NCBI RefSeq assembly: GCF_003206065.1
Contig: NZ_PZJQ01000002.1
Coordinates: forward strand, 260,790 to 324,789
Length of the DNA: 64,000 nucleotides
DNA from: Salinicola halimionae
GTDB taxonomy: Bacteria > Pseudomonadota > Gammaproteobacteria > Pseudomonadales > Halomonadaceae
Direction of reading: 5' to 3'
Within the stretch, counting starts at the first letter, position 1. Every line of letters begins with the position of its first letter. Below the pieces are notes generated by a model. The model did no database searches, was not told the origin of the DNA, and saw nothing but the letters and a program-made list of their open reading frames with translations. This document shows positions 1 to 10,652 of this stretch, piece after piece. A program made the position numbers and the translations under genes.

Positions 1-331
1 AGCCGTCCTGGGTAAGCTCGAGTCTGGGTAGCGCCATGATCCCCGCGTTGTTGATCAGCCGTTGCAGCGAAGTCTCACGCTCCTGCAGGCGGGCGGCAAA
101 CTGGCGCACCGATTCGAGGCTATCGAGGTCGAGCAGCTCAAAGTGAACGTCGGCGCCGGGCTGATGGGCGCGAATCGCGTGGCAGGCAAGCTTGGCTTTT
201 TCGGCATTGCGGGCCGCGACGATGACGCGATATCCCTTCGTCGCGAGGCCCTTGGCGGTTTCCAGCCCGAGCCCGGCGGTGGCGCCGGTGACGATGGCCA
301 AAGGGGCGGATGGTGAGGTCATATCGCGCAT
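1..331 (-). CDS. Short-chain dehydrogenase/reductase, C-terminus beyond window
   Basis: Read on the minus strand from ATG at 331, this frame is open to the window edge (about 110 codons). The Rossmann cofactor motif TGATAGLG lies near residue 15 and the NNAG motif near residue 98, both diagnostic of classical SDR oxidoreductases. The spacing and the AARN segment resemble retinol-dehydrogenase/WW-oxidoreductase-like SDRs, which reduce or oxidise carbonyl/alcohol substrates with NAD(P). The catalytic YxxxK lies outside the window, so substrate and completeness cannot be judged. A second in-frame ATG at 322 is an alternative start. The gene points away from the downstream HdeD gene, so the two are divergent and share about 145 bp. 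Confidence 0.85.
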   Translation of the reverse strand, partial: MRDMTSPSAPLAIVTGATAGLGLETAKGLATKGYRVIVAARNAEKAKLACHAIRAHQPGADVHFELLDLDSLESVRQFAARLQERETSLQRLINNAGIMALPRLELTQDG

Positions 332-475
332 CAAGCGTTCTCCTGCCGAAAAGGGGCGCTGACAAAGGGTGAGTCGAGCAAAATGGAGTCGAGAAAAGTG
401 GGCGTGGAGCATAGCGACCCGGTCAAATTCGGGCACTTTGCTATTCTAGGGGGGCAATCAGACAGGAGTCGAACG

Positions 476-1018
476 ATGGCGAGCGGAGCACAAGGATTCG
501 TAGGTCGCAGTTGGGGGATATTGATGGCATTTGGCGTCGTTGCCATCATTTTCGGGCTGTTTGCCATTTTCCGGCCGCTTGCGGCGATCGCCGCGATGAC
601 CTGGATCATGGGCATCATGGCGCTGGCGGAGGGCGTTACCAGTCTGGTCACGCTGGCTACCGTGCCGGCAGGTGCCCGCAAGCGCTGGCTGGTATTCTAC
701 GGTGTCATCTCGGTGCTGTTCGGGCTGTTTGCCATTTTCAATCCGCTTTCCATGGCCAGTGCGCTGTTGGTGCTCGTCGGGCTATGGCTGGTCGTTGCCG
801 GCGTCAATCGTCTGATCCTCGGCTTGCGGGTGCGTCGTGGCGTGCCGGGTGAAGGGTGGACGGTACTGAGCGGGGTCATTGCCTTGCTACTGGGGATTGC
901 CCTGATGGTCAGTCCGTTGAGTGGCTTGATCGCCACCGCGCTGTGGATCGGTATTCTCGCCTTGCTCTTCGGCATCGCGCAGACAGTGGCAGCATGGCGG
1001 TTGCGAAAAGCCCTTTAA
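476..1018 (+). CDS. HdeD family (DUF308) membrane protein
   Basis: A 180-aa very hydrophobic protein with about six predicted membrane segments arranged as three repeats, each with GI/GLFAIF-type hairpins (for example FGLFAIF appears twice, near residues 26 and 88). This is the DUF308/HdeD pattern; HdeD of E. coli is linked to acid resistance at high cell density, but the biochemical role of the family is not established. ATG at 476 is chosen because AGGAG lies 8–12 bases upstream; an in-frame start at 383 would add 31 residues lacking membrane-protein character. The gene stands alone and is followed by a hairpin at 1097. Confidence 0.85.
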   Translation: MASGAQGFVGRSWGILMAFGVVAIIFGLFAIFRPLAAIAAMTWIMGIMALAEGVTSLVTLATVPAGARKRWLVFYGVISVLFGLFAIFNPLSMASALLVLVGLWLVVAGVNRLILGLRVRRGVPGEGWTVLSGVIALLLGIALMVSPLSGLIATALWIGILALLFGIAQTVAAWRLRKAL

Positions 1019-1180: not shown

Positions 1181-3175
1181 TCACGTCTCCGTCAGACGTT
1201 CCGCGCCCCAGCTACGCCGCAAATAGCCCATCACGTCGGCCAATTCCTCGCCGTGCACGTCGGCAGGCGCGCCTTGCTCCTGCGGATCGAGATGGAAGAT
1301 GTAGAGCCGAGAGGCGAATTGCGCAAAGGGGAGAGATGCCTCGCCAAAGCGTTCACCATTGCCTGCGGTGCTGACCACGACACCATCGCCCCAATCCTGG
1401 CCGCTGTCATTGTTGGGATTGAAGAAGTAGATCCGCATGGTGTCATCGGGGCCGAGTGCGGCGCGCAGAATCGTGATCGCGTGCCAACCGATGAAGCGGG
1501 ATGCGCTATCGGTCACGGCGATACCGGCTGGCTGAGGATGTACCAGCGGCTGGTTGCCGTTGTAGAACGGATGGTAGGTGGCATAGAAATGGCGATAAAA
1601 GGTCTCTGGCGCTTCAATCTTGCCGGTAGTGACATCCACAATGATATGGAAGCCACGTCCTGCCCACCAACCGTGAAATTCCGGATTGACCCAGCGATGC
1701 GGATCGCCCTCTCGATCGATGCACAATCGCCCCATTTCGGCGTAGATGCGGTCAAGATGCGGTACGACCAGTAACGACACGGGATCGAGATCCAGCGATA
1801 GTCCCGTCGAAAGCCCGGCGCCGCTGGTCATCGAAGAGATTGGCTGACCTTCGAATTGCATCACGATTTCATCGTCGCGCGCCGCCCAGGCCACCATCTG
1901 CAGCAGATAGTCCGGGTCGTTGTAAGCCCACATCGACAGCGCCCGTGCCGACTGACAGGTCGGGTTGTTGCCTTGCCCCACGCCCAGAGGCAGACCCAGC
2001 ATGCACAGCACGCCCTCGAGCAGTCTCGCTTCGGGAGACGCGCTTTGCCCGTAGGCCAACGTCAGACGCTGGCGCGACCAATTGCTTAGCGGCAGTGCCA
2101 ACTGGCGCCAGAGAGCGGGAGCCAATGGCGGTTGGTAGAGAATGCCGCGCTCGAGCAGCATCGCCAGACCGTAGATGGCCTGTGCCGTCGCCGGGTAGGC
2201 AATACCATCGACCAGGGCTTTTATCAGTTGGTGGTAACACAGCAGACAGTCGCGCCCGGTCGTCGACAGTCCCAAGGCTTCGCTGATCAGGTGATCGTTG
2301 TGGTCGAGCAGATAGCGCAGGAGTACCGGGTGGTAGGGCGATACGAGCCCGATATCGCGCATGGCGCGTGCCATGCCAGAGGCTTCCTGCTGCAACCCAG
2401 GAATGTCCATTGCCGACAGTCTTTCCGCATAGACGTCGACACCGGGGTCTTCACGACATCCCTGGGTCGGGCCGAACAGGCTACTGACCAGACGGGCAGC
2501 GCCCTGCCCACTGGTACCAAGATCGATCTCCGGGTTGGCCTGGCAGAGCGCGATTTGGGTAATCATCTGGCGGATCGAATCCGTCAGAAGGGGACGCTGT
2601 TCCAGCAACCGCCAGATTTCATCGATCATCACATCGATGATGAACTCGAAGCCGATGCGCTCGGCCAGATAGCGAAAAAGCGCACGCGGAACGTCGGCCA
2701 GACGACCTTGAGTTTCGCGTTCCGCTTCGCTGGTCATGTCGAATAGCCGAGGCAGATTGAGCGCCAGCACCTGAGTGAGATAGTGGTGGGCGTGCTCGGC
2801 GGAGATCAGGGCATGCGGATAATCGCCTTTTGCCACCGCCAACAAGCGCAGCTCGCTCAGCGACTCGATCATCACCGTATCGGCGTCGGGGCTACCTAGG
2901 GATAGCGGCGTCAACGCTGGCAACAGGTGCTGCGGCGTTGACCAGTCGGAGTCGGCGAAGAGCCCGGAGCGATCGATTACCGCGGCGCGATGCTCCAGCG
3001 CCTGACAGCCACCAGGTTCCAACAGGACACGACGGGCGATGTCGAAAACACGCTTGGCACGCATGGCTCGAGAGAAGCTTGGCGCCTGCGCCAGCACGGC
3101 CAGCGCTTCGTCAAACTGCTCCAGCCGTTGCGGTAGACGCGCCTCAACGGCCGGGGAATCGGTATCCAACGGCAT
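1181..3175 (-). CDS. Unassigned protein with papain-like signature in its C-terminal half
   Basis: A 664-aa protein that I cannot place in a named family. ATG at 3175 is chosen because GAGGAG sits just upstream; a GTG at 3193 is part of that site. The first 390 residues look helical, with no membrane segment or signal peptide. The C-terminal half carries QG-x4-C (Gln 401, Cys 407), GWHAITI (His 565) and FNPNND followed by DWGDG (Asn 586). Gln six residues before Cys, then His and Asn followed by a WG-x-G stretch, is the order and spacing of papain-fold cysteine peptidases. This is inference from motifs only. It lies 62 bp downstream of an ATP-grasp gene on the same strand, suggesting a two-gene operon. 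Alternative: a catalytically dead or unrelated fold. Confidence 0.75.
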   Translation of the reverse strand: MPLDTDSPAVEARLPQRLEQFDEALAVLAQAPSFSRAMRAKRVFDIARRVLLEPGGCQALEHRAAVIDRSGLFADSDWSTPQHLLPALTPLSLGSPDADTVMIESLSELRLLAVAKGDYPHALISAEHAHHYLTQVLALNLPRLFDMTSEAERETQGRLADVPRALFRYLAERIGFEFIIDVMIDEIWRLLEQRPLLTDSIRQMITQIALCQANPEIDLGTSGQGAARLVSSLFGPTQGCREDPGVDVYAERLSAMDIPGLQQEASGMARAMRDIGLVSPYHPVLLRYLLDHNDHLISEALGLSTTGRDCLLCYHQLIKALVDGIAYPATAQAIYGLAMLLERGILYQPPLAPALWRQLALPLSNWSRQRLTLAYGQSASPEARLLEGVLCMLGLPLGVGQGNNPTCQSARALSMWAYNDPDYLLQMVAWAARDDEIVMQFEGQPISSMTSGAGLSTGLSLDLDPVSLLVVPHLDRIYAEMGRLCIDREGDPHRWVNPEFHGWWAGRGFHIIVDVTTGKIEAPETFYRHFYATYHPFYNGNQPLVHPQPAGIAVTDSASRFIGWHAITILRAALGPDDTMRIYFFNPNNDSGQDWGDGVVVSTAGNGERFGEASLPFAQFASRLYIFHLDPQEQGAPADVHGEELADVMGYLRRSWGAERLTET

Positions 3176-3237
3176 GACGATATTGCTCCTCACCCAACGG
3201 TGGCAGTGATCGACGAATTTTTTGCCACTGTCGCGGA

Positions 3238-4461
3238 TCAGACGTAAAAATCAAGTTCTTCCTGATGCTTGAGCAGGTCACGCATGCGCTGAGGGTCGTC
3301 GCCGAAGAAGAATATCAGCCCCCAATGTGTGCCGAACGCCGTGCGTTTGGTCACCGTCGCTTCGAGGGGAGCGGTCAGCTCGTGATAGTCGAAGTAAGGG
3401 TGCTGTTCGGTTTCCTCCGGCAGTTCGAGCCGGCTAACCACACGCTTGCGCGGATACACTCCGAAGCAGCCTGCACACCCTTTGGCGTCTTCCAGAGGCG
3501 TGGGGAAGAATGCCGCGACTTCCTCCTCGGTTGCCTTGGGATCGAACACCAGCATCGATGCCTGATAGGCATTGAAGCCATAAGCGCGCTCGATGAGCTC
3601 GAACGCCTTGAATCCCGGTGGACGATAGGCGACCTCGCCGAAGTACATGGTGCCGTCGTTGGTCACGAAATATTCAGGATGAATTTGCCCGAAACGAATA
3701 TCGAACGCTTCTATCAGCAGTTCTATCTGGCGAGTGATTTGCTCGCGATAGCGTTCGAGTTCCGGTGTCGCCGGCACGAAAACGGAATATCCCAGCGTGA
3801 CGTATTCGGAAATATTGAGAAACTGAATCTTGCCATTCCAGACCCAGGCTTCAACGGCAAATTCCCATCCGTCCAGATGGCTTTCCATCAATAACGGATA
3901 CTCGCTTTCCGAAATATATTCTATTTCATCCGGTGAGCGAATAATCCGATGCCCAAGGCAACCGGCTTTATCGAAGGCTTTTAGATGGATGGGATCGTCG
4001 GGGTCGCCATCCAATTTCAGCAGCGTCTGGTTGACACGTTTGAAGAAGCGAATGACGTCACTTTTTTCATGAGCTTCTTCGAAAATACCGACGCGAATAC
4101 CACCCAGTTGAGCGCGTCGTTTCATTAGCGCCTTGTCGCGGAACAGCACGGCTTGGCCATGCAGGCGCGGATTCTTCATCAACACCGAATTGATGGCACC
4201 CGCCCATTCTACGGTTTCTTCGAATAGTGGAACGGCAGCATCCACGCCCATATCTCTTAGCGTTTCCGCAATTTCGAGTGAGCGATCATTCAGACGTTCG
4301 AAATTCCACGAGACATAGGGAATATTGTGCTGAGTGCAGTATTCCTCTGCCCAATCCGGTGCCACGACCACATAGCGTCGATCAAAATTTTCTGCAGCTT
4401 CCACCGCGCCCAAGCTCCAGCCCAGCAGTGCGATATAACCTTTTTCGGTATTCTTCTCCAT
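3238..4461 (-). CDS. ATP-grasp carboxylate-amine/thiol ligase-like enzyme
   Basis: A 407-aa protein starting at ATG 4461 behind a strong GGAGGGAGG. Residues 8–100 form a PurK-like pre-ATP-grasp fold (GYIALLGWS at the start). The ATP-grasp part follows, with the nucleotide-binding stretch HLKAFDKAGCLG near 159, an LLMESHLDGWEFAVEAWV segment near 190, and the metal-binding GEVAYRPPG near 275. The last matches the family's E-x-x-x-R-P-P-G pattern. Such enzymes form an acyl-phosphate and pass it to an amine or thiol. The substrate is unknown. The downstream partner looks like a papain-fold enzyme, so a ligase plus amidase/peptidase pairing is conceivable. It is not a biotin carboxylase or RimK by sequence feel. 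Confidence 0.8.
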   Translation of the reverse strand: MEKNTEKGYIALLGWSLGAVEAAENFDRRYVVVAPDWAEEYCTQHNIPYVSWNFERLNDRSLEIAETLRDMGVDAAVPLFEETVEWAGAINSVLMKNPRLHGQAVLFRDKALMKRRAQLGGIRVGIFEEAHEKSDVIRFFKRVNQTLLKLDGDPDDPIHLKAFDKAGCLGHRIIRSPDEIEYISESEYPLLMESHLDGWEFAVEAWVWNGKIQFLNISEYVTLGYSVFVPATPELERYREQITRQIELLIEAFDIRFGQIHPEYFVTNDGTMYFGEVAYRPPGFKAFELIERAYGFNAYQASMLVFDPKATEEEVAAFFPTPLEDAKGCAGCFGVYPRKRVVSRLELPEETEQHPYFDYHELTAPLEATVTKRTAFGTHWGLIFFFGDDPQRMRDLLKHQEELDFYV

Positions 4462-4719
4462 AAATTAACCTCCCTCCATATTAGGACTGTTATTGATGTT
4501 CAATCCATTATAGATGAAAGGGCAGGAACTGTCAGTTGGGCCGGTCAGGCTCACCAGCGCTGAAAGCATAGGTGCTTGTTATGCAACACTCATTTCGATG
4601 ATGTAAATCTTGGGTAGACGAATGAAAATCAGACAAATGGGTCAGTGGTTTTTTAGAAAAACAGTTCAATAGCGTGCTTTCAATTCTGTTTTTTCGAGTT
4701 AAAAATGAACGGGGATATC
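4462..4719. other. AT-rich gene-free stretch upstream of the ATP-grasp gene
   Basis: About 260 bp of lower GC than its surroundings, between the ATP-grasp start and the mltA remnant. Presumably it holds the promoter of the ATP-grasp/papain-like pair. I see no convincing coding frame and no clear operator. Confidence 0.5.
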
Positions 4720-8322: not shown

Positions 8323-8724
8323 GTGTCCGGCCAGACCTACGCCATTGGCGAACTCGCGCAGCACTTCGACGTGACCACCCGCACCATCCGCTTCTACGAG
8401 CAGGAAGGCCTGCTCTCCCCGGAGCGGCGCGGCAAGACCCGCGTCTACCGTGAGAAGGACCGCGTTCGCCTCAAGCTCGCCCTGCGCGGCAAGCGCCTGG
8501 GTTTCTCGCTGATCGAGATTCGCGAAGTGCTGGATCTCTACGACACCCGCCACGACGGTAGCGTCCGCCAACTCGAACGCCTGCTCGAGATCCTCGCCGA
8601 CAAACGCGCCAACCTCGAACGCCAGCTCGAAGACATCCGCATCATGCAGCGCGAACTCGACCAGGTCGAAGAACGGTGCAAAGGTGCATTGGGGGAGTTG
8701 AAGGCGGCGGAAGAGGGTCACTGA
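8323..8724 (+). CDS. liuR: MerR-family regulator of leucine/isovalerate catabolism
   Basis: A 133-aa MerR regulator with GTG start. Residues 6–40 form the winged helix-turn-helix (YAIGELAQHFDVTTRTIRFY, then EQEGLLSPERRGKTRVY), and LRGKRLGFSLIEIREVLDLYD is the signature of the LiuR subgroup. The rest is a coiled coil (residues 75–125) for dimerisation. In proteobacteria LiuR controls liu genes, which are present at 18.4–25.2 kb, but here it is separated from them by a 9.6-kb accessory block. The coding frame is intact, unlike the decayed copy at 10340. The effector is unknown from sequence. Confidence 0.85.
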   Translation: MSGQTYAIGELAQHFDVTTRTIRFYEQEGLLSPERRGKTRVYREKDRVRLKLALRGKRLGFSLIEIREVLDLYDTRHDGSVRQLERLLEILADKRANLERQLEDIRIMQRELDQVEERCKGALGELKAAEEGH

Positions 8725-10182: not shown

Positions 10183-10339
10183 TGGCCCTTCCTCGTCTGT
10201 CGTATCTCCGGGCCATGCTGTTGGCCAGCGTCTCGATCGGCCGCAGAATCTACGACTCCCGTTGACCTTGATCTGGAGACGATCCCGCAGCAATGTAGGC
10301 CGCCTCAGAGAGATCGCCCTTACCGGTGACTTCAGTTTG

Positions 10340-10652
10340 GCAGCGACGCATGCTCGGTTTGCCACCCGTCGCACGCCTCTGCTTCTACGAGCACTCGCTT
10401 CAAGCTCGCTCTATGCAGCAAACGCCCGGGTTTCTTGCTGATCGAGATCCGCGAAGTGTTGGTCTTTACGACATCCGCGTTGATGGCAGCGTCCGCCAAC
10501 TCGAGCGCCTGCTCAAGATCCTCGCCGACAACCGTGCCAACCTCGAACGCCAGCTCGAAGATATCCGCGTCATGCAGCGCGAACTCGACCAGGTCGAAGA
10601 GCGGTGTGAAGGCACATTGGAGGAGTTGAAGGCGGCGGAAAAGCGTTCTTGA
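10340..10652 (+). pseudogene. Decayed second copy of liuR
   Basis: From about 10340 the sequence aligns with liuR (8335–8724). The ends match closely: GSVRQLERLLKILADNRANL and the following coiled coil differ from liuR at few positions. The DNA-binding part has lost roughly 60 bp after the CTTCTACGAGCA block and carries frameshifts, so no regulator can be made, although the C-terminal coiled coil frame is still open. It has the same orientation as liuR, about 2 kb downstream, and marks the left edge of the cassette region. Confidence 0.85.

Follow-up and report, generated by a model that had tools for sequence, protein, structure and literature searches.

A strictly co-occurring putative ATP-grasp ligase and putative papain-like protein in Salinicola halimionae, with possible ties to ectoine metabolism

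Glutathionylspermidine synthetase/amidase is a single fused protein with a CHAP and a GSP_synth domain, and its substrates are glutathione and spermidine. The CHAP amidase of GspSA (MEROPS C51.A) is placed in the papain superfamily in the available part of PMC10318531, and the accessible text of PMC4431377 names BtrJ, of the butirosin pathway, as an ATP-grasp protein. Ectoine protects cells against salt stress. Its synthase, EctC, cyclizes N-gamma-acetyl-diaminobutyrate and can also act on other amides in side reactions (PMC4795551 and PMC6344544, each available in part). Solitary EctC outside ectABC has also been described, with a function that the accessible portion of a 2018 review calls unresolved (PMC5924519). 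This text is about two neighbouring genes in a stretch of 64,000 nucleotides from Salinicola halimionae, a salt-loving member of the Halomonadaceae (RefSeq assembly GCF_003206065.1, contig NZ_PZJQ01000002.1, positions 260,790 to 324,789), called the window below. They encode protein A, a putative papain-like enzyme, and protein B, an apparent ATP-grasp ligase. There is, in our estimate, about an even chance that the two form an intracellular pair that makes an amide and then cleaves or transfers it, in an osmolyte metabolism linked to ectoine.

What stands out is that the proteins come together. The search covered 293 genomes of one order, sampled evenly out of a larger group. A occurs in 40 of these and B in 40, and the two sets are identical. 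The same holds for 58 relatives, where both are found in the same 23 genomes. Neither protein was found without the other in these two collections, which bears out the co-occurrence check proposed in an earlier note on this DNA. Matches to A were accepted at an expectation value (E) of up to 1e-3 and matches to B at E up to 1e-30, where the lowest B match kept in the order scored 811 bits; weaker relatives of A, of B or of the deacetylase group described below would escape counting at the thresholds used. Across the phylum, in a search for A alone, A is present in 11 of 398 genomes.

The genes are usually also adjacent. B lies beside A in 74 of 80 loci, two of which are cut by a contig start. 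The other six (L046, L062, L064, L071, L078 and L081) have at most a remnant of B beside A, and each of these six genomes has an intact second B elsewhere. Seen from the 137 distinct A genes, B is in the same orientation and no more than 3 kb upstream in 113 cases, divergent in 4 and downstream in 2; the remaining 18 have no B in the stretch compared, in some cases owing to a contig end. Of the six rearranged pairs, all but that of G244 group in a single clade, in the A tree as well as in the B tree (trees built from 45 of 119 pairs). Copy numbers can differ. A outnumbers B in several genomes, and G055 has five full-length A and a sixth short match, yet two B. In genome G014 (loci L023, L026, L028 and L030) A is split into pieces in different frames, and in G025 (L021) B is broken, through either assembly error or decay.

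Protein B is the more conserved of the two, with 172 of 405 alignment columns invariant in 139 sequences. The motifs that the earlier note had called intact are indeed so: D109, K149, K161, E193, E263, E276 and R280 are present in 139 of 139. The only Pfam match of the window's B at E up to 10 is ATP-grasp_4 (PF13535), at E 1.7e-5 and 24.9 bits, below the curated cut-off of 27. All of 21 B homologues match this family at E up to 0.1. A profile of B finds the L-amino acid ligases 4wd3 (E 5e-4) and 3vot (E 8e-4) in the PDB, and E263 and E276 align with glutamates of these ligases. Judged by sequence, B is an ATP-grasp enzyme and a distant relative of the L-amino acid ligases.

For A, the alignment contains 138 sequences: 137 distinct, full-length and stop-free homologues plus the window's own, with fragments excluded. 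Q401, G402, C407, H535, H565, N586 and G596 are identical in all 138, W595 is kept in 137, and C407 is the sole invariant cysteine among the eight of A. Because Q401, C407, H565 and N586 are identical throughout, they are not chance occurrences. The earlier note had read all four in the 664-residue product, with a WG-x-G motif after Asn586, and had asked about the conservation of Cys407 and His565; the motif is there as W595-G-D-G. Conservation is higher towards the C-terminus. Mean identity to the window's A is 0.75-0.82 over residues 368-630, and 0.51-0.68 over residues 1-367.

Family searches with A return very little. No Pfam family matches it at E up to 10, so CHAP and BtrH_N are not detected. 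There is no sequence match in the PDB, and a profile of A gives three matches there only, at E 0.43 or worse. NCBIfam matches are very weak (best E 0.096), and neither PADLOC (E up to 0.1) nor PHROGs has a matching family. Among 28 A sequences, seven Pfam families match one to three members each (best E 0.013), and DUF2891 and DUF4274 each match 15 of 64 C-terminal domains (best E 0.024). These were taken as chance. That both proteins look unlike described families, as noted earlier, is borne out. No secretion signal is evident in the sequence of A.

Structure prediction gives somewhat more. The AlphaFold2 model of full-length A, from a 64-row alignment, has a mean predicted local distance difference test score (pLDDT) of 72.4 and a predicted template modelling score (pTM) of 0.58, and is poor at residues 396-507. 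A model of residues 368-664 has a mean pLDDT of 74.3 and a pTM of 0.71. Cys407 is at the start of a helix in both, at 406-416 in the full model and from 406 in the domain model, although pLDDT falls below 50 around this helix start (396-444 and 395-406 respectively). His565 lies in strand 561-574 and Asn586 past strand 580-585, again in both models. On these models the order Cys-His-Asn over helix, strand and strand is that of papain.

When the domain model is compared with the PDB using Foldseek, 10 of the 13 best matches are of papain type (best E 0.14, probability 0.63). They comprise cathepsins B and L, PepW, staphopains, falcipain and a plant endopeptidase. In a library of viral structures, papain-type proteins are at ranks 2, 8 and 13, the best of these at E 0.016. 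From the models it is quite probable that the C-terminal domain of A is papain-like, and A would thereby represent a family of papain-like enzymes that is conserved, cytosolic and absent from Pfam.

The pair is also tied to ectoine synthase. Of the 293 genomes, 151 have EctC, 149 of them with a score above the cut-off, and 148 have an EctA that scores above its own. Both proteins are present in every one of the 40 genomes with the pair. The probability of this association arising by chance is about 1e-13 by genome and about 8e-6 by genus (20 of 20 versus 70 of 118), in a calculation that treats genomes as independent and ignores relatedness.

There is physical linkage as well. In G038, ectC lies 32 bases past A in the order B-A-ectC on one strand, and the contig ends inside ectC. 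In G482 the order is ectC-B-A, with ectC 235 bases before B. It lies 713 bases before B in G576; the distance to B is 726 bases in G662, where B is divergent, and 1830 bases in G491. This makes five cases of ectC no more than 2.5 kb away from A or B, where about 0.09 would be expected by chance, assuming round figures of 65 loci and 44 EctC copies. The identity of the EctC genes near A or B is confirmed by Pfam and NCBIfam. Such linkage is harder to explain by a saline niche than the correlation between genomes is.

None of the ectC genes neighbouring A or B has ectAB beside it in the stretches compared. Conversely, ectAB without ectC, and with ectC elsewhere in the genome, is seen in G491, G662, G588 and G531 (loci L285, L286, L287 and L289). 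In G588 ectC adjoins an eroded B. For G491, G662 and G588 the EctC beside B or its remnant is the only EctC found, while ectAB is elsewhere. In genus g265, ectC is away from ectA in three genomes with the pair, and near ectA in two without it. Outside the 293 genomes, Halomonas salicampi (L192) has an ectC convergent with B in addition to a normal ectABC; the aminotransferase encoded near this ectC shares only 27% identity with EctB and belongs to a different type. Of the positions given in the accessible part of PMC6344544, those that bind iron and most of those that bind substrate are retained in the EctCs beside B. Histidine replaces Asn38 in them, as it does in most of the cluster-type EctCs compared.

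A further partner is a protein of the HDAC family (PF00850), for which HDAC6 gives the best matches in the PDB. Enzymes of this type take acyl groups off amines. The gene adjoins A or B in L225, L201, L204 and L105, in the last case as B-A-HDAC with all three in the same orientation, and is 3 kb off in L200; L201 and L204 carry a GNAT gene too. A search with a profile of four members (E up to 1e-110) finds this group in 23 of the 293 genomes, all of them among the 40 with the pair. Without the four genomes that supplied the profile, this is still 19 of 19. The ties to ectoine synthase and to the deacetylase had not been foreseen in the earlier note, and they point to osmolyte or diamino-acid chemistry.

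Locally, B is upstream of A on the same strand, with a gap of 62 bases. Neither strand has a terminator-like site between them, and B is preceded, at a distance of about 45 bases, by a promoter-like site. For these reasons it is plausible that A and B are cotranscribed, as the earlier note had stated more firmly; the promoter-like site was found by consensus matching, which gave 2 sites versus 1.9 expected by chance. An alignment of the upstream regions of 19 genomes contains no conserved regulatory block 5' of B. An alternative GTG start at 3193 would make A 670 residues long, while GAGGAG precedes the ATG start. Coordinates are collected in Table 1.

Table 1. Positions of the pair and its candidate functional residues within the window
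Feature	Position	Strand	Remarks
Protein A gene	1181-3175	-	664 residues, ATG at 3175; from open reading frame, models and homologues
Helical N-terminal part of A	residues ~1-367		AlphaFold2 models
C-terminal domain of A, probably papain-like	residues ~368-664		AlphaFold2 models
Protein B gene	3238-4461	-	407 residues; apparent ATP-grasp enzyme, distant relative of L-amino acid ligases
Gln401 codon, candidate oxyanion-hole residue	1973-1975	-	role by analogy with papain
Cys407 codon, candidate nucleophile	1955-1957	-	N-terminus of predicted helix
His565 codon, candidate catalytic base	1481-1483	-	inside predicted strand
Asn586 codon, candidate third triad residue	1418-1420	-	directly past predicted strand
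Promoter-like site 5' of B	4507-4535	-	CTGACA-17-TATAAT, 11/12 consensus matches

The G+C content of B is 0.526 (0.586 at third positions), that of A 0.611 (0.707) and that of the window 0.616; the 429 bases 5' of B are at 0.46. The low value of B possibly reflects foreign origin or strong protein constraint. The nearest named relative is Salinicola halophyticus, whose A is 95% identical to that of the window. Besides ectC, GNAT and the HDAC-type gene, no neighbour of the pair is conserved beyond local synteny in the loci compared, where genes were called by longest open reading frame, sometimes an antisense one, so that true neighbours may have been missed. Elsewhere in the window, the open reading frame at 10326-10652 (+) is, by eye, an altered repeat of the C-terminal stretch of a MerR-like regulator at 8323-8724 (+), a partial duplicate.

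Some broader explanations were considered and rejected. A plasmid-borne system was rejected on the basis of a lone record with relatives among 72,556 plasmid records, a Halomonas replicon of 1.83 Mb. Phage cargo was rejected as there is no match in phages, PHROGs has none, and none of 75 pattern matches in viral contigs is a relative. An anti-phage defence system was discarded since A, B and the HDAC-type protein match no PADLOC family at E up to 0.1.

How might the pair work? A and B would be obligate partners. Inside the cell, B would activate a carboxylate with ATP and join it to an amine, which gives an amide. A, also cytosolic, would use Cys407, His565 and Asn586: the cysteine would attack an amide or ester, followed by hydrolysis or transfer. 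The pair would act inside or parallel to the ectoine metabolism of halophilic and marine Gammaproteobacteria. The compound made and taken apart would most likely be a diamino acid in amide linkage, derived from 2,4-diaminobutyrate, from N-acetyl-diaminobutyrate or from ectoine, or else another small osmolyte of this sort. Where the HDAC-type deacetylase is present, it might strip an acyl group off the same compounds. Such a product is favoured because an acylated diamino acid would suit B, A, ectoine synthase and the deacetylase alike. What the genomes show is that A and B occur together and are linked, that their key residues are conserved, and that both co-occurrence and linkage extend to ectC and the HDAC-type gene. 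The amide chemistry, the direction of A's reaction, the small-molecule substrate and the role in osmoadaptation are what we infer.

A number of findings weigh against this. A shared saline niche could be the sole cause of the genome-level correlation with EctC. Ectoine can be made without the pair, as 111 of the 151 EctC genomes lack it. Of the 40 pair genomes, 35 have no intact EctC within 2.5 kb. The window's genome is one of these, and its ectC is part of a normal ectABC on another contig (C6). The stretches of 13 kb compared around the detached ectC genes of G575 and G531 contain neither A nor B. At the threshold used, the HDAC group is present in 23 of the 40 pair genomes and absent from the other 17, to which the window's again belongs. 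As to the fold, no single Foldseek match of the domain model is significant, and the 50 PDB matches listed for the full-length model include none of papain type. The papain-type domain claimed earlier has the ranking of its fold matches and its residue order in its favour, and lacks a match that is significant by itself.

A more specific version is that A, B, the detached ectoine synthase and the HDAC-type deacetylase make up a new osmolyte pathway yielding an undescribed ectoine derivative. This we hold to be unlikely, if worth spelling out. B would couple a diamino acid from the ectoine route to an amino acid or another acid, ectoine synthase could close the amide into a ring, and A and the deacetylase would dismantle the product. 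If true, some of the ectC genes away from ectAB would thereby have a function, and a new osmolyte or ectoine derivative would be relevant to industrial ectoine producers such as Halomonas. Apart from this pathway, the pair is a concrete lead on the role of detached ectoine synthases, because it occurs only where ectoine genes are present and is repeatedly found beside ectC away from ectAB.

The alternative that survives best is that the link with ectoine is indirect, with A and B a general salt-adaptation or marine pair and the ectC neighbourhood a result of gene-island sharing. This is possible, though it falls short of being probable. Where taxa are named, the 40 pair genomes belong to saline or marine lineages. 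The pair is patchy within one genus, at 8 of 18 genomes. Island sharing also has a candidate case. The EctC at 10933-11328 of L192 (Halomonas) is 95% identical to that at 5992-6393 of L274, which is from another family, and both stand beside B or a B remnant. Because of this identity across families, transfer of an EctC-B block between the two lineages is likely on the sequences. Against mere sharing are the five nearby EctC genes where about 0.09 were expected, and an arrangement that differs from case to case: ectC can be upstream, downstream, divergent or convergent.

It may also be that A is no hydrolase. By analogy with BtrH and BtrJ in butirosin, it might be an acyl- or aminoacyl-transferase that finishes a biosynthesis begun by B. 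The accessible part of PMC10318531 places BtrH in a papain/staphopain cluster, a fold type that A's domain resembles. Strict co-occurrence would suit a two-step synthesis, as would the order B-A-ectC on one strand in G038. But neither a carrier protein nor any other gene of natural-product synthesis is a recurrent neighbour of the pair in the loci compared, and A has no Pfam match, BtrH_N included. We hold a transferase to be rather unlikely.

Somewhat more doubtful still is protein modification, where B would add an amino acid to a protein, A would remove it, and GNAT and the HDAC-type enzyme would act on the same target. There is a parallel in logic in the enzymes of the tubulin tail: tyrosine ligase, vasohibin, HDAC6 and ATAT1. 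The ATP-grasp ligase, GNAT and HDAC-type deacetylase are mutual neighbours in L201 and L204, the deacetylase resembles HDAC6 most, and the large helical part of A could bind a protein. However, A was not found inside the L201 and L204 stretches, no conserved gene for a protein target was seen near the pair (among automatically called reading frames only), and the linkage with ectoine synthase suggests a small molecule.

A glutathionylspermidine-type synthetase/amidase in the strict sense is extremely improbable: E. coli GspSA does share the logic of an ATP-grasp type ligase with a papain-superfamily cysteine amidase, but A and B are separate polypeptides, neither has a CHAP or GSP_synth domain, and B is nearer to the L-amino acid ligases. 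Of the parallel drawn in the earlier note the synthetase/amidase logic stands, and membership does not, with A lacking any Pfam match and B matching ATP-grasp_4 only.

Compared with other known systems, the pair is likewise similar in parts. B shares the ATP-grasp core of the L-amino acid ligases (BL00235, which is PDB 3vot, and PDB 4wd3), with the glutamates of the metal and ATP site and the arginine aligned. Unlike them, it aligns over its central third only, and its ATP-grasp_4 match is below the cut-off. A has the Q-x5-C spacing, the order of histidine and asparagine, and the cysteine at a predicted helix start that are typical of papain-type peptidases (cathepsins of C1, PepW, and the staphopains of C47). 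It differs from these in having no Pfam or PDB sequence match, no evident secretion signal and a helical N-terminal part of 367 residues.

In butirosin formation, too, a papain-like acyltransferase (BtrH) works alongside an ATP-grasp ligase (BtrJ); A and B come without BtrH_N, and no carrier protein or antibiotic cluster was seen. The EctCs beside A or B stand apart from ectAB, as do the solitary EctCs in the accessible portion of PMC5924519, and have an ATP-grasp neighbour.

Searches of open-licence literature, with some papers judged by title and start of abstract and with subscription journals mostly outside the coverage, returned no description of such a pair. What is known is the logic of a ligase with a papain-fold partner. 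What is new is the family of A, probably papain-like, and the genomic setting in which it is found.

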